Assembly (NCBI RefSeq): GCF_032854445.1
Contig: NC_088305.1
Span: forward strand, 32,265,645 to 32,329,644
Direction: 5' to 3'
Length of the DNA stretch: 64,000 nucleotides
DNA from: Liolophura sinensis
Lineage: Eukaryota > Mollusca > Polyplacophora > Chitonida > Chitonidae
A program made the translations under genes and the position numbers. Shown here piece after piece: positions 4,701 through 25,700 of the stretch. A model generated the notes under the pieces. It was not told where the DNA came from. It did no database searches and worked only from the letters and a program-made list of their open reading frames with translations. Every line of letters starts with the position of its first letter. The first letter of the stretch is position 1.

Positions 4701-5322
4701 CATGGTTATACCTACACACACATTACATAAATGTAGCTAACTCATGGCTACACCTACACACACATTACATACATGTAGCTAACTCATGGCTACACCTACA
4801 CACACATAACATACATGTAGCTAACCCATGGCTACACCTACACACACATTACATACATGTAGCTAACTCATGGCTACACCTACACACACATAACATACAT
4901 GTAGCTAGCCCATGGCTACACCTACACACACATAACATACATGTAGCTAGCCCATGGCTACACCTACACACACATAACATACATGTAGCTAACCCATGGC
5001 TACACCTACACACACATAACATACATGTAGCTAACCCATGGCTACACCTACACACACATAACACACATGTAGCTAACCCATGGCTACACCTACACACACA
5101 TAACATACATGTAGCTAACTCATGGCTACACCTACACACACATTACATACATGTAGCTAACCCATGGCTACACCTACACACACATAACATACATGTAGCT
5201 AACCCATGGCTACACCTACACACACATAACATATATGTAGCTAACCCATGGCTACACCTACACACACATAACATACATGTAGCTAACCCATGGCTACACC
5301 TACACACACATTACAGACATGT
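4701..5322 (+). repeat. 42-bp minisatellite, about 15 units, just downstream of the shugoshin stop
   Basis: The unit is catggctacacctacacaca followed by cataacatacatgtagctaacc. The array ends about 70 bp beyond the stop codon on the minus strand, so it is probably in the 3' UTR. The 42-bp unit is open in one minus frame (MCRCSHGLAT...), which I take as a by-product. Confidence 0.92.
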
Positions 5323-5392
5323 ATGTTAAATATATACAATGGATAATAAGGTAGAATATGTGCAAAGACTAGCAATGGTATGTATAAAACAG

Positions 5393-5463
5393 TTACTGAG
5401 TATCAATAAGAGGACGGGTTGAGGAGCGTTTTGCCAGGCTGCTCTTGCTTCTAGATCGACCAG
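5393..5463 (-). CDS. SGO: Shugoshin terminal exon with stop codon
   Basis: The acceptor ttggatttcag is in phase 1 and completes an alanine codon with the G of exon 10. The exon encodes GRSRSKSSLAKRSSTRPLID, then TQ and TAA (5393-5395). The basic Ser/Arg tail is typical of shugoshin C-termini. The preceding intron (5464-9212) is 3.7 kb and holds a 50-bp array and two transposon-like elements. No convincing polyadenylation signal is close. An AATAAA on the minus strand at 3246-3251 and an ATTAAA near 4298 are candidates. Confidence 0.85.
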
Positions 5464-8400
5464 CTGAAATCCAAAACAAAAAGGCAACACTTAAAAAATA
5501 TTAATAAAGAGCGGTATATACATGAAAATGACAGTTTTTCATACAAAAATTTACTCATGACTTTTTCACATAAAAGAAGAATATCAGTGTCATGGATAAA
5601 TGAAGCCAGAGAGCTAGAGGTAAACCAGCAACCTTTGGTTTAACACTCTTTCACGCATGCCAGGCATTTTGCTCGAAAACTGGTGGTCTTCAACAAAGGT
5701 TAGACTGTCTAACGGCACACTTGACCACAACAAAACAACTTAGATGTAGATTAATTTTTCAACAGCATGAAACACACATCATGATAGTTCAATTAAATTA
5801 AACATTGAGGTCTATTTTCAACAATTTCTGATATTTACCTCCCTCAAAGTTTAATCATTGAATTAAAAAAACGCAGTAGGTTCATTCTGCAAGGCACATT
5901 GCAAAACAAAGTGGGCCGTTAAATCCACTCCAAAACGACTTCATTCGCCAATTTCTGGTGTGCATAAAATAGAATATGACCTTTATTACCATTACTGCGA
6001 GTGTAAATGCATTCCTTAGTCGAACTCTTGTTGAAATACACAAAAATATTTCTTTATCGCTCGTCCAACTAACTTTGCACTGTTATAACAAGTCTAATTT
6101 ACTTAAATCTCTGAACCGAGCACAAAAGGATATGCAAATCAACCTAACAAAAACAAGATGATGTAACCAGTCTTGTATGACAACTTTAACGATGATTTCA
6201 TCAGTTATCATGGATGTACAATAGAAAGAACAATTTCTCCAATCCATCGATGAAGAAAACATAATTCTGAAGGCCTCAGTGAAGGCTTGCAGCTATCAGG
6301 CATCTGCTTCGTTATCCATTTTTTCTGGCTGTGACAGATATAATCCGCATTTTGGATGCACCCGATGCATCATGCGTGCACACAGTGATTTTGAAGAGAC
6401 GAAAGTCAAAACTTTATCAGGTTTTCTGTATATAACTACTCTGAAATCGATTGAAACTTGCAGGAGTGATCGAAAAGACCCATCTCTTCTCAGTCCACAC
6501 TAGAAATCAGCATGTGGCACCGTTTTGAAGTAGACTTAACAGCCCACTTCATTCCACACAGTACCTTGCGGAATGAACCTTTCGGGTTTTTGAATTCAAC
6601 AATTAAATGCTAAGGCAGGTAAATATCAGAAATTGTTAAAGATAGACCTCAATGTTTAATTTTTAGGTAAATATCAGAAATTGTTGAAAATAGACCTCAA
6701 GATTCAATTTAATTAAACTAACATGATGATGAAGAGCTTCTCTCAAATACAGCTGAAAAAGATGAATGTGTAACTCATTCAGCTACATGTATATTGGTTC
6801 TTTAGGAAAAAAAACGCTCCAAGTGCATTATGAAAAGTTTACATGCTTTTCACATGATTAATCACAACTTCTTACCCACAAGTAACAGACACCCCGTATA
6901 CATGCACATGTAAACTTAACTGGCAATCTTCCACTTAAAAAAGCAAGCAGTACATTTCAGAGATTAGCAATAGACTGTTTGATCTGAACCTTAGTGTCTA
7001 CTCAAGTTGCCCAGGCTAAACTTGTGACAACTGTTGCAGTTTTGTCTTAGATGGTCAGATTGATTGACTGATTGATTGAATTGGTGTTTAATGCCATGCT
7101 CAAGAACTGTTCACTTATACGACAATGGTCAGAGTGGAGGAAAGTAGGTGGTTTGAATCAAAAGTTTAGATAGGCTTAAATTTTGTAACTACAAGAGCTT
7201 GTAAATGTGTTGATTATAGATTAGTTTGGACATTCAGTGTATCTAAAATGTATACACATCTGTCCCTAGGATCATGAAGATGTCTTAGGCTTCAGTCAAA
7301 CTTCAAAGTAGTGTACAACACCAAAATTGTGATTTACCCCAGGAATTTTTACTTCAATACTGATAATTATGTTGGTTCTTCATAAGAAAATCAAAAATTA
7401 GTGTTCAAGTTGAAGTCCAGAAATAATACCAGAAGTTAAGGAAAAGAACTCTAAAAATAAAAGTAGGCATCTCTAAATAGACCACTTAAAACTATGCATA
7501 AGTATACTTTCATTTACTATCTTACGTTTTTGTGAAAAGAGTTACAGTCGTTCTAACATTTGAATACTAAGGTAGGATTTATGTACCATACTGTCAGTGT
7601 TTAGGAACTCTGACGTCACATGAAGTTTTCCCAATGCTAATCACAATACTGAATATTGGAATAACTCTTTTTCCCCATGAGTAAAAGATTACTGAAATAA
7701 TGTTCCCAAAAATTACTGGTAATGTGACGTCAGAGTTCCCAGATACCATCAGTATGGCTTGTAAAACCCACCATAGTATTCCAATAATATTATTTGAACA
7801 AAAAATCAGAAAGAATAGATGAAAATGTTTGTACGCATAATTTTCAGTTGTCTGTACAATGAACCTTATTTCATATTTTAACTTGCTTTTACTTGTTTTA
7901 CTTTACACACTTAAAGTTGAGACTAAGGCAGCTTTGTGAACCTGGGACCTGGGACCTTACGAAGCAGTTACAACATGTGCCTTACTGTAACACTCATGGC
8001 AACAAATATCATGAGATATATCAACATGGTAAATGTACAAAACGTAGCGTTGTAACTGATCTATGAGATGAGCCCCTGGAACCATTTGTTCACATAGCCT
8101 TGTAACTGCTATGTGACATAAGCCCCTGGAACCATTCATTCACGAATCTTTGTAACTGCTTTGAAAGATAAGTTCCAGAAATATTAATTCATGAAGTGTT
8201 GTAACTGCTTTGTGAGATGAGAACCTGGAACCATTCATTCACGAAGCTTTGTAACTGCTTTGTAAGATGAGCCCCTGGAATTATTCATTCATGAAGTGTT
8301 GTAACTACTTTGTAAGATGAGAACCTGGAACCATTCATTCATGAAGTGTTGTAACTACTTTGTGAGATGAGCCCCTGGAACCATTCATTCACGAAGTGTT

Positions 8401-11400
8401 GTAACTACTTTGTGAGATGAGCTCCTGGAACCATTCATTCATGAAGTGTTGTAACTGCTTTGTGAGATGAGAACCTGGAACCATTCATTCACGAAGTGTT
8501 GTAACTGCTTTGTGAGATGAGCTCCTGGAACCATTCATTCACGAAGTGTTGTAACTGCTTTGTGAGATGAGCTCCTGGAACCATTCATTCACGAAGTGTT
8601 GTAACTACTTTGTGAGATGAGCCCCTGGAACCATCCATTCACGAAGTGTTGTAACTACTTTGTGAGATGAGCCCCTGGAACCATTCATTCATGAAGTGTT
8701 GTAACTACTTTGTGAGATGAGAACCTGGAACCATTCATTCACGAAAAGTTGTAACTGCTTTGTGAGATGAGCCCCTGGAACCATTCATTCACGAAGTGTT
8801 GTAACTACTTTGTGAGATGAGCCCCTGGAACCATTCATTCACGAAGTGTTGTAACTACTTTGTGAGATGAGCCCCTGGAACCATTCATTCACGAAGTGTT
8901 GTAACTACTTTGTGAGATGAGCCCCTGGAACCATTCATTCACGAAGTGTTGTGACTGCTTTGTGAGATGAGCCCCTGGAACCATGCATTCACGAAGTGTT
9001 GTAACTACTTTGTGAGATGAGCCCCTGGAACCATTCATTCACGAAGTGTTGTAACTACTTTGTGAGATGAGCCCCTGGAACCATTCATTCACGAAGTGTT
9101 GTGACTGCTTTGTGAGATGAGCCCCTAGAACCATTCATTCACGAAGTGTTGTAACTGCTTTGTAACATGAGCCCCCAGAACTATTCATGCAGTGTATTTG
9201 TATAAATACTACCTTTCTTCTTTGTTGGCAGTTCGTTTTCTCCATACACTGAACTTGTGTATTTGTCCCCTTGTCGCAGTTTACTGGAATATAAGAAAAT
9301 ATGCAGAATCTGAAGAACTCTTTCAACGACAGTTTTTGAGTCGAGGAAAATAAAGTCCTGGGTAAAACCACCATAGTCACCAAATACATCACAAAATTTC
9401 AGCCAAAGAACAACATGCAGTCAGATCAGCATTTTTTTCTAATTGGATTTAGTGGACTTATGGAGAAAGACTGGATTTGAACTTACACCCAATGTGCCTT
9501 GCAAGTTAGGAGTCGCACAGCACCATAAACTGAAAGCAGGCCATCTGAATGTGCAATGAATACAGAAGCATATAGCTGACAGTGGAATGTCACACATCTT
9601 GTCATGCTCGACTACTGATCTGTATTGATACAGTTCAGGCTACAGACGTTATGAAGTTTTAGAATGTATTGACACCATATTTACAAGTACATGCACGTAT
9701 ACCTTCTCAGTCTTGGCTCCTTGTAGCAGACATTAGTGGCACCTCTTCGTCTACGTTTCCTGGAGTTTTCATCATCTTCACCGCTGAAAATAAGTCAGTA
9801 GATGTAAGCCCTGTTCTGTCAAGGATGTCTTCCTGTTAAGCAAAACTCAATTGCAAAATATTGAATACTATACTTACTGTTACAACATACTGATAACAAT
9901 TCACAGACCTTCATAGGCTTCGTTTTTGTTTTCTTATCGTTTCTTTTTTCTTTGGGTGGGCGTATTTTTTTGTAACACCCTACTCAAGGCCATTTCATTT
10001 TTATAACGCCATATATTTTTTACACAAGTGGAGTGTAAGCCACTAAGTTTCAAACTTTTCCATGAGGAGGTAAAACTTGCGCATGCTGGTGGCAGACAAA
10101 TGGTGGTGATTTAGCTTAATATTAAGGGTTGCTGATACATCTACTTTCACAGGCTGTTACATACACTTTGTAGCAGTGTAATAGTTTTTGAAAAGACACA
10201 GAGGCAAAACAAAAGAAGATATATAAGCATGCAATGAGCTATAATATTTGGCAATTTCACAATGAGAGAGGAAAGAAAGCACAAAAAAGAATTCAGGACA
10301 AGTCTACATAACATTAACCAAAAAACTTACAACTGATCCAGTTGGTTATACAATGCCAGAAGCTCACTGGATGTACGTTTATGGTTGTCAAGGCACGCCT
10401 GCAAAAATTCCCCCGGGAAAAAAAGTCATATTTAGGCTTTTAGCTCATTTAAAAATTTTATGGCAGGAAAAAATGCCTTCAATATACTAACATATATTAA
10501 TATATTAACATCTGCAGTTTTACTGGCAACTTATGCAAATCAAGCAGACTAGTCATAAGACAGATCATCATAATTTTTTCTGACTACACACATTTGAAAA
10601 ATTGTTACAAGAAATCACAAACCCACATTAATCATCTCACCATTGAACTATTATTAAAAAAAAAAAAAAAACGGTCTTGGCCAAAATCCCTGTCACAACT
10701 ATTTCTATCAATATTGCATGTACATGTACATGTTATTGTACAAAATTTCATATTTTGATTATAAAACTCCATGAACAGTTTTCTATCCTCCATAAATAGT
10801 GAGCATGTTTTGTATTTGGTACAAAATATGCTAGTCTGTACATTTACTTAGTTAAGAGTGTTGATGGTAATGGTACTCAGTGTTTTGGGTGGAGGAAAGT
10901 GCAGAGCCCAAGGTAAAACACTAACCTTAGGGTAGTGACAAACTTCTCCCAGATGTGACACAGACTGATTTGTATATCTGCACTGGTGGCAGATAAGTGG
11001 TGTAGAGCAAAAGTACATCCTAAGGTTGTGCACGTGGCTCTATGAGCGCTGTCAACATCTTGTTGTCACCTCAGCACCAAGATAAGTAAGGACAGGAACA
11101 ACAAGAAATTCACTCAGCTGTAGGATTTGGAGGCACCTGGACAGTGGTTTACTATCTCACCTGGTTGCCTTTGCGATTACGGGGGAAGTGGCCGGTGGTT
11201 TATTCACCTGGTCATCTGTAGGATTTGGAGGCACCTGGCCAGCCTACCCCTGGTTTTCTATATGATTAGGGTGCACCTAGCCAGTCGTTTACTCCCCTGG
11301 TTGTCTGTAGGATTAGGGTGCACATGGCTGATCCTTTACTCACCTGGTTGTCTGTAGGATTAGGGTGCACCTAGCCAGTCGTTTACTCACCTGGTGGTGC

Positions 11401-14400
11401 ACGTGGCCAGTCGTTTACTAACCTGGTTGTCTGTACGATTAGGGTGCACGTGGCCAGTCGTTCCCTCACCTGGTTGTCTGTATGATTAGGGTGCACGTGG
11501 CCGGTAGTTTACTCACCTGGTTGTCTGTAGGATTAGGGGGCACCTGGCCGGTAGTTTACTCACCTGGTTGTCTGTAGGATTAGGGTGCACGTGGCCGGTA
11601 GTTTACTCACCTGGTGGTGCACTTGGCCAGTCGTTTACTCACCTGGTTGTCTGTAGGATTAGGGTGCACGTGGCCAGTTGTTTCCTCACCTGGTCGTCTG
11701 TAGGATTAGGGTGCACGTGGCCGGTAGTTTACTCACCTGGTTGTCTGTACAATTAGGGTGCACATGGCCAGTAGTTTTACTCAACTAGTTCTCTGTATGA
11801 TTAGGGTGCAAGTGGCCGGTAGTTTACTCACCTGGTTGTCTGTAGGATTAGGGGGCACCTGGCCAGCCGTTTACTCACCTGGTTGTCTGTATGATTAGGG
11901 GGCATGTGGCCAATAGTTTACTCACCTGGTTGTCTGTAGGATTAGGGGGCACATGGCCAGTTGTTTACTCACCTGGTTGTCTGTAGGATTAGGGTGCACG
12001 TGGCCGGTAGTTTACTCACCTGGTTGTCTGTACGATTAGGGTGCACGTGGCCGGTAGTTTACTCACCTGGTTGTCCGTATGATTAGGGTGTACGTGGCCG
12101 GTTGTTTACTCACCTGGTTGTCTGTACGATTAGGGGGCACATGGCCAGTTGTTTACTTACCTGGTTATCTGTAGGATTAGGGTGCATGTGGCCGGTAGTT
12201 TACTCACCTGGTTGTCTGTAGGATTAGGGGGGACCTGGCCAGTCGTTTACTCACCTGGTTGTCTGTAGGATTAGAGGGCACCTGGCCAGTCGTTTACTCA
12301 CCTGGTTGTCTGTAGGATTAGGGGGCACCTGGCCAGTCGTTTACTCACCTAGTTGTCTGTATGATTAGGGGGCATGTGGCCAATAGTTTACTCACCTGGT
12401 TGTCTGTAGGATTAGGGGGCACATGGCCAGTCGTTTACTCACCTGGTTGTCTGTAGGATTAGGGTGCACGTGGCCGGTAGTTTACTCACCTGGTTGTCTG
12501 TAGGATTAGGGTGCATGTGGCCAGTTGTTTACTTACCTGGTTGTCTGTAGGATTAGGGTGCATGTGGCCGGTAGTTTACTCACCTGGTTGTCTGTAGGAT
12601 TAGGGGGGACCTGGCCAGTCGTTTACTCACCTGGTTGTCTGTAGGATTAGGGGGCACCTGGCCAGTCGTTTACTCACCTGGTTGTCTGTAGGATTAGGGG
12701 GCACCTGGCCAGTTGTTTACTCACCTGGTTGTCTGTATGATTAGTGTGCATGTAGCCAGTCGTTTACTCACCTGGTTGTCTGTAGGATTAGTGTGCATGT
12801 GGCCAGTCGTTTATTCACCTGGTTGTCTGTATGATTAGGGTGTACGTGGCTGGTCGTTCACTCACCTGGTTGTCTGTATGATTAGGGGGCACTTGATTGT
12901 CCATAGGATTAGGGGACACCTGGTTGTCATTAGGGTTAGGGGACACCTGGTTGTCTACAGGGTTAGGGGACACCTGGTTGTCTACAGGGTTAGGGGACAC
13001 CTGGTTGTCTACAGGGTTAGGGGACACCTGGTTGTCTACAGGGTTAGGGGACACCTGGTTGTCTACAGGGTTAGGGGACACCTGGTTGTCTACAGGGTTA
13101 GGGGACACCTGGTTGTTTACAGGGTTAAGAGGCACCTGGACCGATTCCACAAGGCCGTTTTTGTCTTTATTTATTCTGACTTTAAGTCCAAAATTATGCC
13201 CAATGTTTAGTATTGTACAGTGTATTTTGAAATTTGAACACCTTTGTCCTAAGATACCAATGGTGAGATGGACAAAATTTCTAAAGCTCAAAAATAAGCT
13301 TTACGACAGTATATGTATTTCAAATTTTAACTGGAGTCATCTGTTTGTCTGTAGGACAAGGGGGCACCTGGATGTAGGATTGGTGAGAATTTGGCTGGTG
13401 GTTTACTCACCTGTTTGTCTGTAGGACAAGGGGGCACCTGGACGTAGGATTGATGAGAATTTGGCTGGTGGATTACTCACCTGTTTGTCTGTAGGACAAG
13501 GGGGCACCTGGATGTAGGATTAATGAGAATTTGGCTGGTGGTTTACTCACCTGTTTGTCTGTAGGACAAGGGGGCACCTGATCGGTCGTTTACTCATCTG
13601 TTTGTCTGCAGGACAAGGGGGCACCTGGATGTAGGATTAATGAGAATTTGGCTGGTGGTTTACTCACCTGTTTGTCTGTAGGACAAGGGGGCACCTGGAT
13701 GTAGGATTGATGAGAATTTGGCTGGTGGTTTACTCATCTGTTTGTCTGTAGGACAAGGGGGCACCTGGATGTAGGATTGATGAGAATTTGGCTGGTGGAT
13801 TACTCACCTGTTTGTCTGTAGGACAAGGGGACACCTGGATGTAGGATTGATGAGAATTTGGCTGGTGGTTTACTCCCCTGTTTGTCTGTAGGACAAGGGG
13901 GCACCTGATCGGTCGTTTACTCATCTGTTTGTCTGTAGGACAAGGGGGCACCTGGATGTAGGATTGATGAGAGTTTGGCTGGTGGTTTACTCATCTGTTT
14001 GTCTGTAGGACAAGGGGGCACCTGGATGTAGGATTGATGAGAATTTGGCTGGTGGTTTACTCACCTGTTTTTCTGTAGGACAAGGGGGCACCTGGATGTA
14101 GGATTGATGAGAATTTGGCTGGTGGTTTACTCACCTGCTTGTCTGTAGGGCTGGCAGGCACCTGATCGGTCGTTTCAGGACACTGGTTCTCAGCCCCTCC
14201 CTTCTGCTGCTGTTCCTGGCCCCTGTGGTCTGGAGGGGAGATGTTCTGGGAGAGTCTGGATAGGTGACGTCTACTGGCTGGCACTGGGGTCTCCTCTATG
14301 ACAGGATTAACCTGAGCTGCTTCCTCAACCTCCTTTCCCACTTCCTCCTCACTGTCCGTGTCAGGCATAATGGCAATAGTCACCCTCTTCTTCAGACGAG

Positions 14401-17400
14401 CCTTCTTCACGACTGGCGAGTCATCATCCGAGACTGTCCCTGAATTGATGAGGATACCTTGCCGACTGCCTTCTTTAGCTTGAGATTTTCGACACTCACT
14501 TTGCTTCTTGTTCTCAGTTGTCTGTGACTTGGGGTCTTTAGATGTGACATTATCAGTGTTTTCTTTTTCCGAATCGGTGCTCTTAAGTGATTCTAACCGT
14601 GCAGATGCTCTTCTCTGATTACTCCTGGGTTTTGGAGCCATCTTTTCCTTGCTTCGCTTCTCTTCTGGATTACTATCACTTTCCTCAACAAGATTATCCA
14701 CTGTGTCGTTTTTTTTGGCTTTTGACCTGGATTTGCTTCTTGGCTTTTTAGCTTTGCTTTCTTTGCCAGCCTGAAGCTGATCTTCATCTGTGGAGGCAGA
14801 CGAGCATCTGGACAGCTGTTTGCGGAACTCCTGGAAAGTAAACTTCTGCCCCACACACGATTCATTCATGGAGACATCAAAAACAGATTTGTGTGAGGAG
14901 GCTGTCTTCTCCTTAGTGACCTGAGGAGTTTTGTCATGGTAGTCAAATATGGAAGGGGGTTCTGTAGATGTACGCTCAGTTTGGAGCACGTTTGACTTGC
15001 TGCTTGACTTAGCCGAAGCCTTAGGCTTTCTCTGCTTGGATCGAGTTTTGGCGGGGAGTTTTTCGGGGACTGCTTGTCTGACACCATTATCGTCTTTGCG
15101 GCCCACAGCATAGCGGACATCACCCAGTTTGCCAACTCGGACCTCCACGAGACTCTTGGCAGACTCGTTACCTTTCCCTTTACCCTGGTCATCCTCAGAC
15201 TCCTCAGTGGCTGGAAGGGCGTTCTCCATTTCTCTGATGGCACGTGTGGTTGTAGGGTCCATGGGCTCACCTTTAGCTTTACCCTGGTCATTATTAGAGT
15301 CCTTACTGGCTGGGAGGGCACATGTGCTTGTGGTTGCAGGGTCCTTGGGCTCACCTTTACCTTTCCCCTGGTCATCCTCAGACTCCTCAGTGGCTGGGAG
15401 GGCCCTCTCCTTTTCTTTCACGGCATGTGTGGTTGTGGTTGCAGGTTTGTTGGGCTCGTAGGACTTGGGTTCATGCTGAGCCTTCGTCGCTGGTATTGCC
15501 GATCCACTGCCTTGCTGTGCCGGCTGTAGGACAGGCACACACGACATTGTCATGGACTGTCCCCCCAGAATCATGGGGATGTTGATGACTTCTGTGAACT
15601 CCATATCCATGTCCATAAGGACAGTGGCATCATCCTCTTCCATCATGTTGGCACCATACTGGTCACTGGCTGCACTTTGAGCAGGCTCAACACTCAACTG
15701 TGGAGCACCACTGTCCTTATTACTAGGCAACTCAAAGCTTCGCTCAACCAAAAGGGAATCCCCTTCACCTTTGAAAAACTTTTCTATTTCCTCCTCTGTG
15801 TCAGAGGTCAGGCCTCCGTCTGCCGATTCTTTGGCATCCGTTTTTCTGGCAGGCAGAAGAAATGTTCCCCTCCTTGCTTTCCCTGAGGTCTTGGCAAGGA
15901 CAGAAGAAGAAGCATTTTCGGCTAGGTTGTCCGCAGAACTGCCATCCTGCCGTTTAGCAGCCATCTTCTTGCGTCTTTCCTTCGCAGTTGTCTCTGTCAT
16001 GTCATAGCCTTTCATCTGTTGATCTGCACGGTCTTGTGTCTGATCGCTACATTTTGATGCCGGTTTGAATGGGTTGGGAATACTGTAAGTCTGACGTTTG
16101 CTGGTTCGCTTCTCCCCGCGTTTGTCTGCTTGCTTTTCCACTTCTTCAGACTCGTCCACTGTTTGTTCAGAGGGTCTCCTGATGGCACGAAGCACTGATG
16201 GCAGCGTAAAGGCTTCCTTACGGCTTGGCTTTGATGACTTACAGCCTTTGCTGTGCTCGTTTGATTCAGCTGGGTTGGCAGGCAAAACAAAAGTTCCCCT
16301 GCGGTCTGCAGTCTTTTCCTCAGCCTTATCAGTGGGCGATGACAACTCTTCCTCACTCTCAGGTTGTACGCTACTTTTTCTGGGCTCTTTTCGTTCTGCT
16401 TGTATGATTGGGAGGACAAAAGTCCCCCTGCGATCTATGCCTTTCTGCTCAGTCCCGTCACCAGGCATTGCTATCTCTTCCCCACTTTCACAATGTCCTG
16501 TACTGTCAAATGACTCTTCTGTTTCAGGAGACCTTTTTCTCTTGCTCCTTTTAGAGGGTTTTCCAGCACCAAGTCCTGGCTTTGTAGCCTTACATGTGGC
16601 GACAGTTGCAGAGGGCTCCTTACTGGGCCCTGGCTGTTTTCCAGTCCCTAAAGGTTTGCTGATACTAGAGCTTTTTCCTTGGCCTGACCATTCACCAGCC
16701 TCTGTGGCCTTTGTCTTTTGACCCCCAACATCTGTTTGTTGTTCTGTAACAGATTCTGTTGCATTGTCACTTGATGAACCTGCCTTTTTCGGCACACGTT
16801 GAGGAAGGAGAGACAGCAATCTCTTTGGTTCTCCAGGTTCGTGTACACTCCCAGGTCTACCTCTGGCTCCCTCTGCCTCCTCATCCTCTGAGACTATTCC
16901 CACAAATTATACAAAAAGGAATTCATGCTTTCATTTAGAGGTTGTTGTTATAGTCAGGTATTTGTAAATATCCAATGGAAATTTGGCTCATTTAAGCTCA
17001 TGTCAACCCTGGGATTATCTCACTTAAGACTGTCTTTTTGTTTTTGGCAGTACCTACAAATTATTGATTTAAGACTGTACTGTATTATGACTTACACTGC
17101 TTACAGGAACAACAAAAATACTTCCAACAAACAGGTAATTAAAATGACGCCAATTTTATTTCGTGTTTTAAGAGTGAGTTGAAACTAAAACATTCAAAAT
17201 ATGGAACAAAAATAAAACTGAAAATCCACTTTTTCATTGCGTCCAATATTTTTTATACCTTGTGATCATGTAAATATGTCCACAACAGAAACAATTCCAG
17301 AGATTGTCCACATATTCTATGAATTAGATGATTTTCACTTTTTTTTTTTGAAGACCATGTAAAACAACACTTTAAACTGGTGTGGCCTTATGGGGTTTTG

Positions 17401-20400
17401 CAGGCATTGTGAACTGGTTGATTCACTAAACTGTTCTGGTTTAACAAAAGTTTATACATTTTCTGAGTGCCATTTTTAATACCAGGAATTCTTTAGACAG
17501 ATATGATGTACTTGTACTTCAAGCACTTTCCAATATATTTTAATAATCTCAATAGGTTCATGCTAGGGCAAAGGTGCATTTCCACAAAACTCAGTCTGGA
17601 TCAGAGCCAGATTCTCTTATACCTTGTTTCTCAGGCAAATTATATATATTCACAGAAAAAAAAAGAGGTTGGTAGATACTGGACAATGTTCTGAGAAAGT
17701 GTCTTGATCTTCTTACACACTTGTAATTATGACATACCTTTGGTCAGTAAATTAGGCTGCTGGTCTGTGTCCATACCGTCCAAATGGTCTACAGACTCTG
17801 CGATCAGACTGAGGTTAGCCGCCACACCGGACAATTGCACTGGAAAGTGACCAGGGACGGCTTCACTCCCAGGCTGTCCCCCAGACAGTCTCGGCACTCC
17901 CTTGTCAAAGACGTTACGGACGGGTTGGTTGTAGATGGATCGCCTGGCAGGCACAGAGAGGGCAGGTCAGATTCTAATCACTGATAACTTGCGTACATGT
18001 ACTGGTGTGTAATATGCTATCAACAAACAGGTATACCAAAGAATGATCTCACTTCCACAAAGCTGGTCATGTTCATGAGTTAAGAAAATCAGAGTGCCTG
18101 TAGTAAAGCTGAGTCAACAAGCCAGCTTTGCCTCTGTATGTCAAAACTTGAAAATTTGATTGGAATTCATATTTTTGGACACCAGATGTTTAAACCTTAA
18201 ACACATGGAAAACATGTAGGTGTGTTGAGGGCGACACTGATTAATTTATTGGATTAGAATTTTATGCTGTACTCAAGGATATTTCACATATTCTGGTGGA
18301 AGGAAAATGGGCTGAGCCAGGGGAAAGCCATGGCCATCCACAGGTTGCTTCCCACAAACGGTCCAGTGAATGCTCGCTCAGGGTTTACAATCGTCCTTAA
18401 CAATTTTATGACGATGAATTTTATCGTCATATGACAATGAAGGAGTCCTTATAGTACATGTATGAGTAATGAGCCTCCTTGCTGCAGGACTCTTTTATCT
18501 AGCGCTGCTTCACTGAGACGATTTACCAAAGGTAAGTAAAACTAAGTCATCCTACCCAAGCCATTATACTTATACGGGTCAACCATTTGTACTATCCCCT
18601 TGATACTGAATTTGTCATGTTACTGAAGCTTGGGGGCAGTATTTAGTAACAAACCAAATTAATGGGAAACACATAACGCCTTCTTGCCTCCAGCAAAGCG
18701 TTCCAAACCATTGGAACATCAGATCCCAATTATCAGTGCATGTGAGAACATACAATGCATAGAAGACAAGTTACTTCTGCAGTCTAGACCCTTTTGTGTT
18801 GCCCGTCCTACAGTCTCCTATTGTAATTTCAATGCCTGATGTATACTGTAGTTGCTAACCTGGAGACAGAGATACCCTCTGTCAGTTCGTCGGGCTCCCC
18901 CGTGGCAGAAGCCCGTCCAGACCCCAGGGACGAGTGCCGTCCACTCGTCGTCTCCAGCGCTTCTCCCAGTAGCTCCACCACTCCCAGCAGCTGGGAGCTT
19001 ATTGTGTTCAGCAGCTTGCGATTGTCAAACATCCGATTCTGAAACACACCAGCACAAGGCTCTTTGTCATCACTGTCAAGTCCTAAACCACTTCAAACAC
19101 AAGATCACTTGAAAACAGCACCAGGTAATGCAGGCTTGTGTTAAGTATTCAGGACAATATAACAACATGTGGTCCTTGCTGGAATGGCAGTGTAAGGCAT
19201 GAAATGATTTTGTTAGTTATTCGATTGGTGTTTTATGCCGTTGTCAAGAATATTTCACTTGTACAATGACACTACCATGGTGGTCACCATCATTGTGATA
19301 GGAAAAAGGGGCAAAGCCCATGGGAAACCCATGCCAATCCACAGGTTGCTGCCAGGCCTTCCCTTGTATAGCCAGGAATGAAATGAGTTCTGTTAAATCA
19401 TTACCAACCTTTGACCCATGCATCACATCTTCGCTCTTCAGATAAGCTTTTGAAAAGTTAAGCAAGAATTTCAAAAAATAATTGCGTACCACTGTCACCG
19501 ACAATATCAAAAGTAAGTCTGTCAGTGAAGATGCCTGGAAACATTAACAAGACAGCGTCCACCAGGTATATATATTACAAGTGGATGCCATGACCGACAT
19601 TATGATCAATCTCATTGACACTGAACTATAGAATGTTATTCAGACATACAGCTACCGAATACTTAAACATGAGTATAACAGTTTAACGGCAAACAAGGAT
19701 GTCACTACGATTAAGGAATGAGTTTCCACATACATCAAATCGCTTCTGGACTTCAGCCTCTATGCTATCATTGGTCAGTCCAGCCACCCTGTTCAGAGTG
19801 GTCAGTTTTAGCATGATGTTCTGTCGCTCGGCCTTCTCCTCCACCAACGCCTGGTTCAACATGCGGTTCTCCTGTTTGGCATTCTCCAGAGCCTGGGCCA
19901 GAGCACGGTTATTAGCTCGCAATGTGCTTCTTGCGATCAATGAGCGGTTAGCTACAACAACAAGCAGCAAATATAGCGTGAATCTATGGTATGTTGGTTA
20001 GCCTGAAATAAGGTCCACACAATCAATGAGTGGTATTAAAGCTATTATAGCATCCTTGAAAAAAAATTCTTTGTTTGGGTAACCCAACGCTATCAAAAAA
20101 AACCAAAACAAATAGAATATGTCCAGAAGGATTTTCTATTTATTCTGACCTGGAAAAAGACAGGGGTTTTATATAAGTTAATAGTGAACGAATAAAAAAT
20201 AGCATGAAAAGCCCAATATAAACTTTTTGGCCCTTTTTTGGAGGGTCACACTCTAGGGACATATTTTTAATAATGGCCTCAGAGAAAAATGTAAATTGAA
20301 TACAGGTTCATATTTAATTAATTTTTTAGATTTGTGTTAAAGCCATGTATGATATACAAAATTTTCCAATATATGACATTGGCACACTGGTCAAGTTAAT

Positions 20401-22547
20401 GAGTAAAGGAGTCCAACCACCGTCGTTGCTGTGCATGGTGTGACAAGTACAAACCTCCTGACTTAAAAATGATGCTTCACTGGCAACAGTTGAATTAGAG
20501 CCTGCTACCTCAATGGTCAGGGGACCATCAATTGCAGTGAGACCAATGCCTCAAATCGCCAATAAAGCTTGGCAGGGCTCCTCTGTTTTTTTCACTAATG
20601 TTGCTATATCCAGAGGAAAGATATGCGTTGGAGTGGAAGATGGAAAAATTAGCCATTATTGATTAGATAAACAACATACATGTATTTCTAAGTTTGTTGC
20701 ACTGCGGTCAGTTTACTATAACCAGCTGTAGTCAGTTTTATGGGTGGAGGAAACAGGAGCGCGCAGCGTAAACCACTGACCTGGGATAACCTGGATAGTC
20801 TGCCCAGCCTCTATGCTACCTGTGGTTGTACAAGCACAATATACTGCTATAACATACATCTACATATTAAAATAAGTAGGTTTTTTGTATTTATATCTGC
20901 TGTACGTAACAAAGCACTAGTTGGATTGATAAGGTTTTGAAATTAGTCTACCAGAAGCCTCACAAAGGTATTTGCAGGCCTGAAACTCTTGAATTATCTG
21001 GCAGAAAGATGCTGCCAAGAAATTCTGTGAAAGCCATTGAACAGGTCTAATTATAAAGCCTTACCTGCACTTGTATTCAATCCAAGAGCTTTAATTATAC
21101 GATTCCTAGATAAATTCAAGTCACTCCTGATGATCTTGCGTCGCACTTTCTTTACTCTTTTGACTGCAGAGGCAGGTGTAGTAGCAGAGGGGTCCTCTGC
21201 ATGAGTCTTCATCTACAATCAGAAAACAAGATGAAATAAAACATAACCATGTGAAATGAAATCATGTGACCCATATTATTATAGTGAGCTTGATGTCTAG
21301 TTTACTTCACCAAAAGCCTTTCTCTTTTCTCCAGAAATTTCAAAAGGGGCATTGTGACCAGGCGCCTTCTAACTCCAATATATGTATCCCTATAAGTTGT
21401 CTCCCTTGTAAAGGAAGATAACCAACACAGAAAAATTCCTAGTCCAAGCAAGATGGCGTGTGAACACCACCAATGTTCTATGGGCTCAGATAGGACATGT
21501 TAGTGCCACTGGGACAAAATACAGTTGATCTGGAAATCCTGACGATGGATTTGAGCAGATAATAGCTCCAGTTTGAGAAACGAGTGAAAAAGTTCGAATG
21601 AATGCTTTATTCTTTATTTCGGATACATTGTGTGGTGCCTGTCGAAAGGCATTTCATACCTTACTTCTTACATATGTATGTAGGAGGCTGGTAGATAGGA
21701 TATGTAAGGTTTACAGACTGGATTCAAGCACCTGTGGTTACAATGAATGTCAGGATATTAAAACAGCACACTGACTCCATCTAGATGGACTAGGATTGAT
21801 ACAATGTAGTCTCACAATGAAAATAAAACTTTTTAAATCGTTGGCTGAGTTGCTATGGGCTACTGGGTCAGGAGCTGTCAATTTACTAAAGTTCATTTTT
21901 CCATTATTGACACTGGAGCGAATGGTTTTATTTTATTGTAAGATGACAAACTGGCAAAAGGAGTCTGCTCTCAGGACAGCTGTCTGGAAAATTTAGTTTC
22001 AAGGTGTGCTACATATAAATACTTGTAGCATTGGAATAATAAATAAAGGTCCTTTGTTATAAATCCACACAAGAAACTGACGTGTGCTGCGGTTTTAAGA
22101 TAGGTTTTATCACTTGGGATTATTAGTCTCTTTTCACTTCGATATGTTCGAGGATGAGACGCTGGCATGAATGAAAGCGAGTTGAGGTGTAGCAGTGACT
22201 AAAACAGATAAAATAATAGGCTTCAGCATTTAGTTTGATTGGAATATCAGTTCGATTTCAAGGTATAAATACTAATGCATGTAAAGATCTGAACAGCTGA
22301 AAATATACCTCAGCGCTGAATTTTACTGCACCTGGACACTACTAGACAGACTTGAAACAAAACCGCCTTAATTTTCAACACACGTTGTTGTTGTTTGGTC
22401 TCGTTTAGTTTACCCACACACGCAAGCCTGTGCTAATAGACTCCGGCATTAAATCAAGTAAAGAACTAGTTATTGTGCGTTACTGTAAGCCGCTCTGTGC
22501 GCTTGATTAAAGAAAGACATCTTAAGATCAACACAAACCTTCACCAT
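5393..22547 (-). CDS. SGO: Shugoshin (centromeric cohesion protector), complete multi-exon gene
   Basis: Shugoshin recruits PP2A to centromeric cohesin and shields it from separase or removal in mitosis and meiosis. Seen: coding segments 22539-22547, 21065-21212, 19734-19951, 18860-19038, 17738-17943, 14135-16893, 12866-13135, 10331-10398, 9703-9783, 9213-9283 and 5393-5463. Each internal boundary has GT and AG, and all junction phases agree (0,1,0,2,1,0,0,2,1). The sum is 4080 nt, about 1359 residues without optional microexons. Diagnostic family features are the N-terminal coiled coil (ALAQALENAKQENRMLNQAL) and the C-terminal SGO box (NVCYKEPRLR, then SKLRQGDKY after an intron). The middle is long, charged and low in complexity, as usual for the family, but larger than vertebrate SGO1. 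Which paralogue it matches (SGO1 or SGO2) is not decided. The exon model is inference from sequence; no transcript was seen. Confidence 0.9.
5777..6730. mobile_element. Non-coding element with ~170-200 bp terminal inverted repeats
   Basis: The left arm (5777-5960) contains aggtctattttcaacaattt, ctgatatttacct, ggttcattctgcaaggcaca and gtgggccgttaaatccactc. The right arm (about 6510-6730) contains all of these inverted and in order. A stretch of about 55 bp (aatatcagaaattgtt...agacctcaa) is duplicated in the right arm only. The middle 550 bp has no recognisable protein. It looks like a non-autonomous DNA transposon inside the last shugoshin intron. Confidence 0.8.
7060..7150 (-). mobile_element. 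SINE family 1 fragment
   Basis: gattgaattggtgtttaatg, ctcaagaactgttcacttat and a trace of the gtggaggaaa body. It lies inside the last shugoshin intron. Confidence 0.6.
7561..7782. mobile_element. MITE-like inverted-repeat element carrying TGACGTCA, copy B
   Basis: The left arm is gaatactaaggtaggattta, accatactgtcag and aactctgacgtcacat. The right arm is atgtgacgtcagagttccca, atcagtatggcttgta and ccaccatagtattc. It lies in the last shugoshin intron. Each arm holds one TGACGTCA palindrome. Confidence 0.78.
8048..9190 (+). repeat. 50-bp minisatellite, about 23 units, in the last shugoshin intron
   Basis: Units read like gtgttgtaactgctttgtga followed by gatgagcccctggaaccatt and catt-cacgaa. 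They are very similar to one another in the centre and diverge at the left end. An inverted partial unit (acgaagcagttacaacatg, about 7950-7977) sits just left of the array. The right end is about 20 bp from the donor of shugoshin exon 10. Confidence 0.92.
9213..9283 (-). CDS. SGO: Shugoshin exon 10 (second half of the SGO box)
   Basis: It is 71 nt long. It begins by completing a serine codon and encodes SKLRQGDKYTSSVYGEN and then a KKK-rich end. The K-L-R-x-G-D core completes the SGO box begun in exon 9, as in vertebrate sequences ending KLRRGD. The acceptor is tatattccag and the donor AAAG|gtagta, phase 1. A 50-bp minisatellite begins about 20 bp beyond the donor. Confidence 0.9.
9703..9783 (-). 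CDS. SGO: Shugoshin exon 9 (first half of the C-terminal SGO box)
   Basis: It is 81 nt, symmetric phase 2. It encodes GEDDENSRKRRRRG and then ATNVCYKEPRLR. This is the basic conserved shugoshin C-terminal motif. In the family this motif binds histone H2A phosphorylated by Bub1 and so directs the protein to centromeres. The acceptor is ttattttcag and the donor AGAAG|gtatac. Confidence 0.92.
9958..10115 (-). mobile_element. Degenerate SINE family 1 copy
   Basis: gtaacaccctactcaaggcc and atttcatttttataacgcca match the family tail at low identity. It is in a shugoshin intron. Confidence 0.4.
10331..10398 (-). CDS. SGO: Shugoshin exon 8
   Basis: It is 68 nt long with acceptor gaatttttgcag (phase 0) and donor CAGTT|gtaagt (phase 2). 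It encodes ACLDNHKRTSSELLALYNQL followed by DQF across the junction. Both phases fit the neighbouring exons exactly. It links the 9-residue repeat region to the SGO box. I recognise no motif. Confidence 0.75.
10850..10995 (+). repeat. Dispersed repeat family 3
   Basis: Shared block: gggtggaggaaa, a cagagccc-like stretch, ggtaaa-cac-gacctt, then gtgacaaact-tcccag. Other copies are near 1505-1590, 20728-20835 and 50925-51000. No tRNA-like head or terminal repeats were seen. Confidence 0.5.
11120..12865 (-). repeat. 47-bp minisatellite, about 37 units, related to the shugoshin microexon array
   Basis: Each unit on the minus strand is a 27-nt block (VPPNPTDNQ or VHPNPTDNQ in phase 0) followed by 20 nt starting gtgagtaaac and ending ggccag or ggccac/ggccat. 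It lies between exons 7 and 8. The block is the same one that makes up exon 7. Adjacent units cannot be spliced to each other because a 20-nt intron is too short. Isolated units could be included. Read through without splicing, the frame shifts and meets TGA. Confidence 0.9.
12866..13135 (-). CDS. SGO: Shugoshin exon 7: ten tandem 27-nt units (9-residue repeats)
   Basis: It is exactly 270 nt, ten 27-nt units. In order they are VPLNPVNNQ, six identical VSPNPVDNQ, VSPNPNDNQ, VSPNPMDNQ and VPPNHTDNQ. The acceptor tcggtccag|GTG precedes it and the donor CAG|gtgagtgaac follows it, both in phase 0. Phase 0 matches exon 6 and exon 8. Every CAG|GTG junction inside the exon also resembles a splice boundary. 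The frame is open well beyond the acceptor, so the 5' boundary is less sure than the 3' one. Confidence 0.7.
13341..14161 (-). repeat. 70/47-bp array of candidate 27-nt microexons in a shugoshin intron
   Basis: On the minus strand each unit is a 27-nt block (VPPCPTDKQ when translated in phase 0) plus a spacer. Most spacers are 43 nt, start GTGAGTAAACCACC and end ACATCCAG. Two are 20-nt spacers ending GACCGATCAG. Twelve blocks lie beyond exon 6. Six have both a preceding AG and a following GTGAGT: 14065-14091, 13808-13834, 13668-13694, 13551-13577, 13481-13507 and 13411-13437. The other six have a changed donor (ATGAGT, GGGAGT or ATGACT). The 14135-14161 block is the end of exon 6 itself. Confidence 0.85.
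14135..16893 (-). CDS. SGO: Shugoshin exon 6 (2.76 kb disordered central region)
   Basis: This single exon encodes about 920 highly charged, Ser/Lys/Glu-rich residues. It holds six spaced copies of a [RK][RK]x[TA][FY]x[LI]P motif or a weaker variant, for example RRGTFVLP three residues after KGID, and RRGTFLLP. It has three near-repeats beginning ALPA(T/S)..(S)..DDQGK, a KEN sequence (SEKENTD), a MELT-like MDMDMEFTEV, and acidic SDDDSPVVKK. The last 27 nt (VPASPTDKQ) are a unit of the repeat that fills the following introns. The donor CAG|gtgagtaaac is in phase 0. The acceptor is either ggaatag (16894-16895) or, six bases on, gtctcag (16888-16889). Both keep phase 1. Confidence 0.9.
17738..17943 (-). 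CDS. SGO: Shugoshin exon 5
   Basis: It is 206 nt long. The acceptor gtgcctgccag gives a phase 2 entry (AG|G = Arg), and the donor ACCAAAG|gtatgt leaves in phase 1. It encodes RRSIYNQPVRNVFDKG and then a Gly/Pro-rich stretch ending NLLTK. I recognise no domain. The RRSIYN start is a basophilic-kinase-like RRxS site, of the same kind as the repeated RRxTF motifs in exon 6. Confidence 0.85.
18238..18364 (-). mobile_element. SINE family 1, truncated
   Basis: ttaatttattggattagaat, gtactcaaggatatttcaca and ccatccacaggttgctt. It directly abuts a copy of SINE family 2. Confidence 0.7.
18365..18625 (-). mobile_element. tRNA-derived SINE, family 2, truncated
   Basis: It shares with the 43.5 kb copy, in order: ctcgctcagggtttacaatc, atgacaatgaaggagtcctt, gagcctccttgctgcaggac and agccattatacttatacggg. 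The tRNA-like head is missing. Confidence 0.75.
18860..19038 (-). CDS. SGO: Shugoshin exon 4 (end of coiled-coil region)
   Basis: It is 179 nt long and continues the helix with NRMFDNRKLLNTISSQLLGV, then turns Ser/Gly-rich. The acceptor gtgtttcag is in phase 0. The donor CTCCAG|gttagc is in phase 2 and splits an arginine codon completed by the next exon. Coding assignment rests on splice sites, phase fit and position. Confidence 0.85.
19212..19372 (-). mobile_element. SINE family 1, truncated
   Basis: cgattggtgttttatgccgt, aagaatatttcacttgtaca and ccacaggttgctgccaggcc. It is in the intron between shugoshin exons 3 and 4. Confidence 0.75.
19734..19951 (-). CDS. SGO: Shugoshin exon 3 (N-terminal coiled coil)
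   Basis: This exon carries the conserved Shugoshin_N coiled coil: NRSLIARSTLRANNRALAQ leads into ALENAKQENRMLNQAL and KAERQNIMLKLTTLN. In the family this helix dimerises and binds the PP2A A/C-B56 holoenzyme. The ALEN...K core resembles the same stretch of vertebrate SGO1. The acceptor has a pyrimidine and TTG-rich tract ending in tag (phase 1). The donor is GAT|gtatgt, phase 0. The length is 218 nt. Confidence 0.93.
20728..20835 (+). repeat. Dispersed repeat family 3, copy
   Basis: tttatgggtggaggaaacag and gcgtaaaccactgacctggg match the family 3 block. Confidence 0.45.
21065..21212 (-). CDS. SGO: Shugoshin exon 2 (basic N-terminal segment)
   Basis: It encodes about 49 residues rich in lysine and arginine (VKRVKKVRRKIIRSD) just before the coiled coil, matching the basic leader of animal shugoshins. 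The acceptor is ttgattgtag-type, immediately followed by ATG. The donor is GCAG|gtaagg, phase 1. The last base G completes an alanine codon with CT of the next exon. Confidence 0.85.
22539..22547 (-). CDS. SGO: Shugoshin exon 1, coding part (start codon, MVK)
   Basis: The minus strand reads ATG GTG AAG and then a donor gtttgt. An in-frame TAA lies three codons upstream, so the frame cannot begin earlier. Splicing in phase 0 to the acceptor at 21213 joins MVK to MKTHAEDPS. That acceptor AG directly precedes another ATG (21210-21212), so translation could also begin there. An upstream 5' exon is therefore required in either case. A CCAAT box and an E2F-like site lie 40-75 bp upstream. Confidence 0.55.
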
Positions 22548-23954: not shown

Positions 23955-25700
23955 TGTTTATATGATGTACATGTATATGGTGGGCATGTATATGATGTAA
24001 ACGTCAATGGTGCACATGTATATGACATAATATGGTGTGCAGGTATATGGTGGGCATGTGCATGGTGAACACGTATATGATGCAAATGTATGTGGTGCAC
24101 ATGTATATGTTGTAAACGTGTATGGTGCACCTGTATATGGTATACATGTATATGGTGCACATATATATGATGTAAACGTATATGGTGTACAGGTATATGG
24201 TGTACACGTACAAGGTGTGCATGTATGTGATGTTCATGTACATATGGTGCACATGTATATGGTCTACATGTATCTTGTGTACATTGATATGGTGTACACG
24301 TATATGATACAAATGTATATGGTGTGCATGTATAAGATGTACATTATATGTGGTGTACATGTATATGACACAAATGTATATGGTGTACACATCTATGGAG
24401 GAGATGTATTTGGTGCACATGTCTTTCGTGTACATGTATATGGTGTACACGTGTATGGTGTACATGTATAAGGTGCCCATGCATGTGGTGCCCATGTTTA
24501 TGGTGCACACGTATATAATGCAAAGGTAGGTGGTGCCCATGTATATGGTGAAAACGTATATGGTGCACATGCTTATGGTGTACAGGTATGGGTCTACACA
24601 CATATGGTGCACATGTATATTGTTTTTTAAAAGATGTATGCTGTACATGTATACGTTCTTTATGGTGTGCATGTATATGGTGTGCATGTATATGGTGTAC
24701 ACGTATATGATGCAAACGTATGTGGCGCACATGTATATGTTGTAAACGTGTATGGTGCACTTTTATATGATATACATGTATATGGTGTAAACGTATGTGG
24801 TGTACATGTACATTGTGTACATATATATAGTGTACATGTGTATGATGTGCATGTATATGCTGTACATGTGTATGGTGTACATGTACATGGTGTACATATA
24901 TATGGTGTACATGTATATGGTGTGCATGTATATGGTGCGTATGTATGTAGTGTACATATATAAGGTGTACGTGTATATGGTGTACACACATATGGTGTAC
25001 ATATATGATGTACAATTGTAAGGTGTGCTTGTATGTGGTGTACATGTATATGGTCCACATGTGTATGGTGTACATGCATATGGTGTATATGTGTATGGGG
25101 TACATGTACATGATGTACAATTGTAAGGTGTGCATGTATGTGGTGTACATGTATATGGTGCACATGTGTATGGTGTGCACGTATATGGTGTACATGCAGA
25201 TGGTACACATGTATGGTGTACACTTATATGGTGTACATATACATGGTGTGCATATATGTGATGTACATGTATATGGTGTACATGTATATGGTGTACAAGT
25301 ATTTGTGTACATGTATATGATGTGCATGTAGATGGTGTGCATGTGGGTACTTGTATAAGGTGTACACGTATATAGTGTACACGTAAGCCCATAAGATCTG
25401 CATACAGCAAGAAATGTGTTTAGTTATCTGTATATGTACATGTATATTGTGTACATGTATATGATGTGCATGTGTATGGTGTACATGTATACGATGTACA
25501 CGTATATGGTGTACAGGTATGCCCATAAGATCAGCATACAGCAACAGAAGTGTTTTTTTATCTGTATGTGTACATGTATATGATGTACATGTATATGGTG
25601 TGCAAGTATATGATGTACATGTGTACGGTGTATAAGTATATGGTGTACAGGTATGCCCATAAGATCAGCATACAGCAACAGAAGTGTTTATTTATCTGTT
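23955..25700 (+). repeat. 15-bp minisatellite (TGTACATGTATATGG-like), about 110 units
   Basis: Alternating tgtacatgtatatgg-type units with many point changes run for 1.7 kb. The right end has three copies of an inserted block, gcccataagatcagcataca, at about 25388, 25510 and 25648. These make a ~130-bp higher-order unit. Long open frames on both strands (up to 332 codons of His/Tyr/Thr/Met) result from the 15-bp period. Confidence 0.9.

Follow-up and report, generated by a model that had tools for sequence, protein, structure and literature searches.

A minisatellite built on an exon–intron junction in a shugoshin-like gene of Liolophura sinensis

When a tandem repeat carries splice sites of its own, do its copies become exons or is the whole array removed as a single intron? 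The question is raised by a 64,000-nucleotide (nt) stretch of the polyplacophoran mollusc Liolophura sinensis (assembly GCF_032854445.1, contig NC_088305.1, positions 32,265,645 to 32,329,644 of the forward strand). This stretch—the window, in whose coordinates all positions at the locus are given—represents 32.27-32.33 Mb of a 32.82-Mb contig in a 609-Mb assembly, and it contains a minus-strand gene that looks like a shugoshin gene. A 27-nt unit at the end of the gene's largest coding exon recurs dozens of times in the following intron, and the initial annotation took the spaced copies for a bank of microexons that could be included in any combination. Our analysis led to a different picture: the repeated thing is an exon–intron junction, in which the 27-mer is an exonic passenger, and we set the probability that the array is a junction minisatellite, normally skipped whole, at about 0.72.

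The repeated unit and its gene

The array is far beyond chance, with Tandem Repeats Finder (TRF) scores of up to 1894. Counting as a copy any 27-mer that agreed with one of five hand-typed consensus strings at 18 or more of its 27 positions, we located 59 copies on the minus strand, from 14161 to 11110: one at the exon end, 12 in a first part with 70-base-pair (bp) units, ten head to tail and 36 in a second part with 47-bp units. Spaced copies thus number 48, close to the figure of about 49 given in the initial annotation, whose description of a minisatellite at an exon end in a shugoshin-like gene is borne out. A 19-base piece of the array has 22 exact matches in the assembly, all 22 at this locus; the exon sequence adjoining the array occurs once, and a search for a retrocopy or a second allele returned only the locus itself.

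The founder 27-mer (14135..14161, minus strand, as are all features of the gene) forms the last 27 nt of coding exon 5, encodes VPASPTDKQ and is directly preceded by ACGACCGATCAG. The 12 copies of the first part (13341..14091) are spaced by 43 nt, giving the 70-bp unit, or by 20 nt, giving a 47-bp unit. All 12 have AG ahead of them, and six have GT behind—copies 2 (14065..14091), 6 (13808..13834), 8 (13668..13694), 10 (13551..13577), 11 (13481..13507) and 12 (13411..13437)—which are exactly the six that had been singled out as having both splice sites intact. Ten 27-mers then stand head to tail in an open block of 270 nt (12866..13135), followed by the second part (11110..12845), whose 36 copies lie mainly in 47-bp units of 27 plus 20 nt, with AG ahead of 12 and GT behind 32. 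An in-frame stop interrupts the 27-mer in 3 of the 59 copies.

The composition of the unit is revealed by copies 5 (13878..13904, with its donor broken to GG) and 10. The 12 exonic bases ahead of the exon-end 27-mer recur exactly before these two copies, inside the intron; over 49 bases of the exon 5/intron 5 junction, a comparison that takes in the first ten intronic bases, copy 5 is equal at 42 positions and copy 10 at 43. The 20-nt spacer is therefore not an intron: it consists of ten bases of intron start plus ten bases of exon. The 27-mer was accordingly rejected as the original duplication unit in favor of the junction, and both the mixed exon and intron composition of the unit and its size (27, 47 or 70 bp) fit what defines a boundary minisatellite (10-100 bp). 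AAACGACC, in the exon, and AAACCACC, in the intron, sit at opposite ends of the unit and make a plausible slippage site, while CAGGTG flanks the 27-mer on both sides in the exon and in many copies, a pairing from which the 27-bp units of the ten-copy block could have arisen.

Nine coding exons make up the gene's one continuous frame of 1266 residues; its eight introns, 419-3749 nt long, all start with GT and end with AG. Coding exons 1 to 4 lie within 17738..21212 (21212-21065, 19951-19734, 19038-18860 and 17943-17738), and the large coding exon 5 (14135..16893, 2759 nt) ends at phase 0 in CAG, directly before GTGAGTAAAC. Intron 5 (10399..14134, 3736 nt) contains the entire array, and beyond it come coding exon 6 (10331..10398, 68 nt, phase-0 start), exon 7 (9703..9783), exon 8 (9213..9283) and exon 9 (5393..5463, including the stop codon). 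Coding exons 5 and 6 correspond to exons 6 and 8 of the initial annotation, which had correctly placed both flanking boundaries at phase 0. The exon that ends at 14135 joins 10398 directly at phase 0, with no repeat copy in between, and the 68-nt exon 6 passes the frame on. The idea that repeat expansion created exons and introns together finds no support here: the intron does not need the repeats, and the exons meet in frame.

The array is best accommodated by the following scheme. A ~47-bp segment spanning the exon 5/intron 5 boundary (10-12 nt of exon, the 27-mer and GTGAGTAAAC) would have been duplicated, probably through slippage or unequal exchange, since both ends of the segment carry a near-identical AAACnACC word; the intron would be older than the array. 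Growth to about 48 spaced intronic copies would have followed, with later reshaping into units of 70, 47 and 27 bp. In the shugoshin-like gene, the exon-adjacent donor at 14134 would mostly be spliced to the acceptor at 10399, so that the array leaves as one intron and a 1266-residue protein without repeats is made; a transcript that used a copy would in most cases be thrown out of frame and exposed to decay. Because the exon-proximal donor would be used and the array removed whole, such a repeat could be tolerated in the intron.

The gene's identity is suggested by a C-terminal motif and by homologues. Coding exon 7 holds the core of the shugoshin C-terminal motif (RRRRGATNVCYKEPRLRS..), and the match to Pfam model PF07557, at 22.8 bits (E 7.8e-5), falls just short of the cut-off of 23.3. 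A homologue search that scored the 7999 candidates with most shared words gave three proteins, the best from Crassostrea virginica (P0001, E 4.5e-19), which itself has PF07557 and aligns within the motif; 21% of the chiton protein aligns to an oyster protein at this E value. The remaining two come from Saccostrea echinata and Pinctada imbricata. Coding exons 1-3 gave three weak Pfam matches, none of them to the shugoshin N-terminal model, and the C-terminal exons gave three matches in the PDB (E 0.17 to 0.65), none relevant. Searching the whole genome with PF07557 returned no match, as it did in 14 control genomes, but this search missed the present gene as well and is too blunt to count. We also observed that a short motif resembling DRRGTFVLP is encoded several times in coding exon 5 (14135-16893), with similar DRRGTFVV or DRRKTFV motifs visible by eye in the bivalve relatives (P0001, P0002 and P0003); in molluscan shugoshins it may serve as a conserved site of phosphorylation or binding. 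The same exon harbors an 84-bp tandem duplication (15245-15403; 1.9 copies, a multiple of three).

Donor arrays elsewhere in the genome

We scanned the whole genome for triplets of the consensus donor CAGGTRAGT in tandem, spaced 29-59 bp apart. The scan returned 1093 places, against 251 for the reversed motif, 251 for a scrambled motif and 249 for the reverse of the latter. One hundred of the 1093 places were examined and, grouped by eye, amounted to 16 loci in the first 18.84 Mb of contig C1—by proportion, about 175 donor-array loci genome-wide. In several loci, L020, L026 and L027 being the clearest, the array starts at the exon end and the unit holds the exon's last bases. Not all donor arrays derive so plainly from an exon end, L025 being an exception taken up below. 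By eye, the first consensus donor already lies within repeat sequence in 8 of 11 further loci. One locus (L032) combines 13 sense donors with 46 consensus donors on the opposite strand.

Protein homology reveals which donor must serve at least part of the time. It extends up to the very residue that precedes the first array donor in three genes: OGDH, the L020 gene (which we take to be a Mot1-like SNF2 gene, the label in the PDB being helicase-like) and alpha-fucosidase; the next exon of L020 was not found within the fetched stretch. In four loci, the peptide that joins the exon before the array to the exon after it aligns with homologues without a gap at the join: OGDH (L027; intron of about 1967 nt with 14 further consensus donors), a Fe-hydrogenase-like gene (L026; 3932 nt, 67 donors, with one alignment gap away from the join), alpha-L-fucosidase (L025; 3418 nt, 36 donors) and the RNA polymerase III subunit gene RPC1 (L030, 4405-8436; 4030 nt). 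Judged by this homology, these four arrays are skipped whole, although three of the four conserved genes carry the extra tandem consensus donors listed above right after the real one. At RPC1 the exon-proximal donor is GTAAAT, while later copies read GTAAGT; the exon donor is weaker than the copies downstream, so that the weaker site must be used at least sometimes.

These observations invite a more general reading, which we put forward tentatively. Exon-proximal position, or being transcribed first, might decide the choice of donor in vivo across the ~175 arrays of near-identical donors, a rule that the homology evidence makes conceivable but that we would sooner doubt than assert. It starts from the four checked genes, where the exon-proximal copy is required even against dozens of equal donors or against stronger ones, and some of the arrays may have multiplied from an intron start; as a whole we hold the reading to be rather doubtful. 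The rule, if true, would also account for the apparent scarcity of acceptor-like arrays, since the upstream duplicate of an acceptor would be chosen first and spoil the protein.

A triple scan with an acceptor-like motif gave 777 places against 198 reversed, which by raw places resembles the donor result (1093 against 251). Grouped by eye over the whole of C1, the scrambled motif gave 10 loci and the acceptor motif 15, each with 3 within the first 18.84 Mb, a stretch that holds 16 donor loci. Single sites in 104 kb number 4 for the donor and 14 for the acceptor motif (Fisher p 0.0002 against the loci, in a test picked post hoc). These single-site counts had all TRF rows masked, which leaves 4 donor motifs, where the minisatellite survey of arbitrary stretches plus window counted 9. 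With a motif that is a crude stand-in for real acceptors, the asymmetry is only a lead.

The number of donor arrays itself calls for no special mechanism, being near what random seeding leads one to expect: about 100 to 180 donor-bearing arrays genome-wide against the estimated 175. The estimate uses the density of single donor motifs in repeat-masked sequence and 37 usable positions per unit, and its upper value comes from the flanks of donor loci and is biased upward. Seeding counts any donor-bearing array, while the triple-donor scan needs three intact neighbors; the two counts differ in definition, and a modest excess of donor arrays is therefore possible. Donor-specific seeding was rejected as unproven, the comparison of donor and scrambled motifs (16:3 against 4:2) giving p 0.56 or 0.45.

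Minisatellites are a common background in this genome. At a period of 10-120, at least 4 copies and a score of at least 150, we counted 7 in 60 kb (twelve arbitrarily spaced 5-kb stretches over 11 contigs) and 13 stretches in the window, two of which are parts of the shugoshin array, split in two by this procedure. Minisatellites cover about 20% of the window and about 8% of the bases of the 60-kb sample. The window lies about 0.5 Mb from its contig end, and 12 of the 16 donor-array loci in the first 18.8 Mb of C1 fall within its first 7 Mb; donor arrays may be denser near contig ends. The shugoshin-like gene has further arrays: a large 50-bp minisatellite of 23 copies in its last intron (8042-9188), a 42-bp minisatellite of about 15 copies that starts about 70 nt past the stop codon (4701-5323) and may lie within the 3' untranslated region, and an array of about 15-bp units upstream of the first coding exon (23959-25699).

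Weighing the alternatives

Several points weigh against a junction minisatellite that is skipped whole. The position of exon 6 was set by frame and splice sites, without homology. The splice-site scores used below come from a position-weight model with general weights, unfitted to the species. Among the loci elsewhere, the unit of the fucosidase array (L025) agrees with the exon end in no more than its last few bases, four of the 16 loci were resolved to two exons, and what these four genes prove is that skipping occurs, a result with which use of other copies is also compatible. Finally, in the ten-copy block, nine copies show 6 of 19 possible synonymous changes against 5 of 62 nonsynonymous ones (Fisher p 0.017, one of seven tests). 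With the tenth copy included p becomes 0.067, and 2 of the 6 synonymous changes stand in codons with further changes and are thus non-synonymous in context, which leaves the excess as a weak hint of coding.

This hint bears most directly on the best surviving alternative, namely that the ten-copy block (12866-13135) is by itself a real 270-nt cassette exon, with the surrounding spaced copies as intronic passengers. The block is open and, given its own AG and GT, runs from phase 0 to phase 0 with a perfect end donor (12.9 bits), but its boundary acceptor scores just 4.3 bits. The initial annotation had called it exon 7; the ten tandem copies are there, while their status as an exon was a guess, since a 27-nt period alone keeps the frame open. 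We rejected the open frames of the tandem block as exon evidence, the opposite strand being open there too: where the period of a repeat is divisible by three, an open frame and matching phases are no evidence of exons. The two aligned oyster relatives have no such repeat ahead of the shugoshin motif, and a homologue search with the C-terminal region including the block, restricted to proteins of similar length, gave 0 of 4124 candidates at E 0.001. The synonymous changes are few, and multiply changed codons account for part of them; we consider a cassette exon at this position improbable, though it fares better than any other rival.

The bank of microexons, in which the spaced copies are frame-neutral 27-nt exons and the protein varies in nine-residue steps before the shugoshin motif, has clear attractions. 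Six copies have AG and GT with perfect donors and phase 0 on both sides, and five of the six pass an acceptor score of at least 5.5 and a donor score of at least 8 bits; copy 10, as an example of the opposite, has a poor boundary acceptor (-2.6 bits). The boundary acceptors of the ten copies with 43-nt spacing score 6.3-7.1 bits, within the range of the gene's real acceptors (5.5-11.2), exon 5 aside. That exon has two candidate acceptors six bases apart (16887-16893), with a second in-frame start possible at 16887, which score -2.3 and 0.3 bits.

What disfavors frame-neutral microexons is a second acceptor within the unit. TACAG, 19 nt into the 27-mer, outscores the boundary acceptor in all 12 copies scored in the 70-bp part (copies 2-13) and in all 35 scored in the 47-bp part (copies 24-58, 35 of 36); the AG is present at this internal site in 12 of 12 and 34 of 35, copy 40 being without it. 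Its use gives an 8-nt exon and breaks the frame. The 42 acceptors of at least 5.5 bits divide into 10 at boundaries, 29 internal and 3 elsewhere, and only 7 of the 156 cassette exons that could be formed (6-300 nt long, with a donor of 8 bits or more) keep the frame and are open, five of them being 27-nt units. No extension of exon 5 to one of the 42 strong donors leaves it in frame and open (0 of 42). Any subset of copies is indeed frame-neutral when the AG before the unit is used, as had been proposed, but not with the higher-scoring internal site, and on these counts the bank of microexons is not favored.

Donors are broken in 6 of 12 copies of the 70-bp part and boundary acceptors in 24 of 36 of the 47-bp part, and the latter is without codon constraint: over copies 24-56 (33 of 36), diversity at codon positions 1, 2 and 3 is 0.089, 0.121 and 0.052, and 4 of 17 possible synonymous changes are seen against 13 of 64 nonsynonymous ones (p 0.75). 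The spacers, mostly 20 or 43 nt, are short of a workable intron length, the gene's smallest intron having 419 nt; non-adjacent copies could be joined over longer distances. Considering also the four arrays elsewhere that homology suggests are skipped whole, we regard a bank of microexons as unlikely.

A function for the donors themselves is less likely still. In such a scheme, the array would be a field of U1-binding sites with a role in regulating how the intron is spliced or in preventing premature polyadenylation, and the material for it is present: 45 of 233 GT sites in and around intron 5 reach the gene's median donor strength, and donors of at least this strength number 11.8 per kb in the intron, compared with 0 to 1.8 in the gene's seven others. 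The donor columns, however, do not stand out clearly in conservation from the remainder of the unit (0.091 against 0.130, rank 20 of 47 windows), and donor arrays are about as numerous as random seeding expects, so we give this function very little weight. An assembly artefact in copy number or arrangement is hardly credible: long arrays are difficult to assemble and the exon-5 flank is single in the assembly, leaving no second allele for comparison, but the copies are not identical, the unit types follow one another in blocks and donor arrays occur at other exons too.

Relation to known systems

Introns that start with rows of identical splice sites amount to a natural test of how the cell chooses among them. 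Most work on how a donor is picked from identical sites has relied on constructs in which one site is duplicated; with many loci in one species, errors in donor choice would be measurable against copy number, spacing and strength. A limited search of the open literature returned no report of many introns per genome starting with dozens of tandem consensus donors, and no direct treatment of donor competition of this kind.

The closest counterpart comes from human duplicated genes, where minisatellite-type tandem repeats at exon–intron boundaries can alter splicing (PMC2812944). Repeat size and position at the boundary are shared with the array described here. The human repeats average 30 bp and 4 copies and are mostly supported by RNA, whereas here there are 48 spaced copies, known from sequence; most copies here have a consensus-like donor, and on the simplest reading the transcript is unchanged (PMC2812944).

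Two further cases are described in another report (PMC4974935). In a potato RNA-dependent RNA polymerase (RdRp) gene, a tandem duplication spanning the first intron and second exon led to intron gain; there, as here, the duplicated segment crosses a splice boundary and copies splicing signals, but at the present locus the 5' end of the intron has been copied many times, and the intron is usable without the copies. In fission yeast genes, tandem copies of a 24-bp AGGT-bearing exonic segment have an intron across several of them. A short AGGT-bearing repeat with splicing across copies is common to both situations; the yeast repeats are exonic and few, while the array of L. sinensis is intronic, and the splice there probably leads from the founder copy to a site past the last repeat. 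An abalone gene has an intronic 27-bp minisatellite, which is not described there as lying at a junction (PMC6905558).

Schistosome micro-exon genes offer the nearest parallel for the alternative in which copies are exons, because many very short exons would give protein variation in both. Their exons of 3-81 bp alternate with long introns; in the shugoshin-like gene most spacers measure 20 or 43 nt, and exon use is only a candidate. By the size and composition of its unit, the array behaves like a junction minisatellite, while the comparison with a micro-exon gene would apply to it as a candidate at most.

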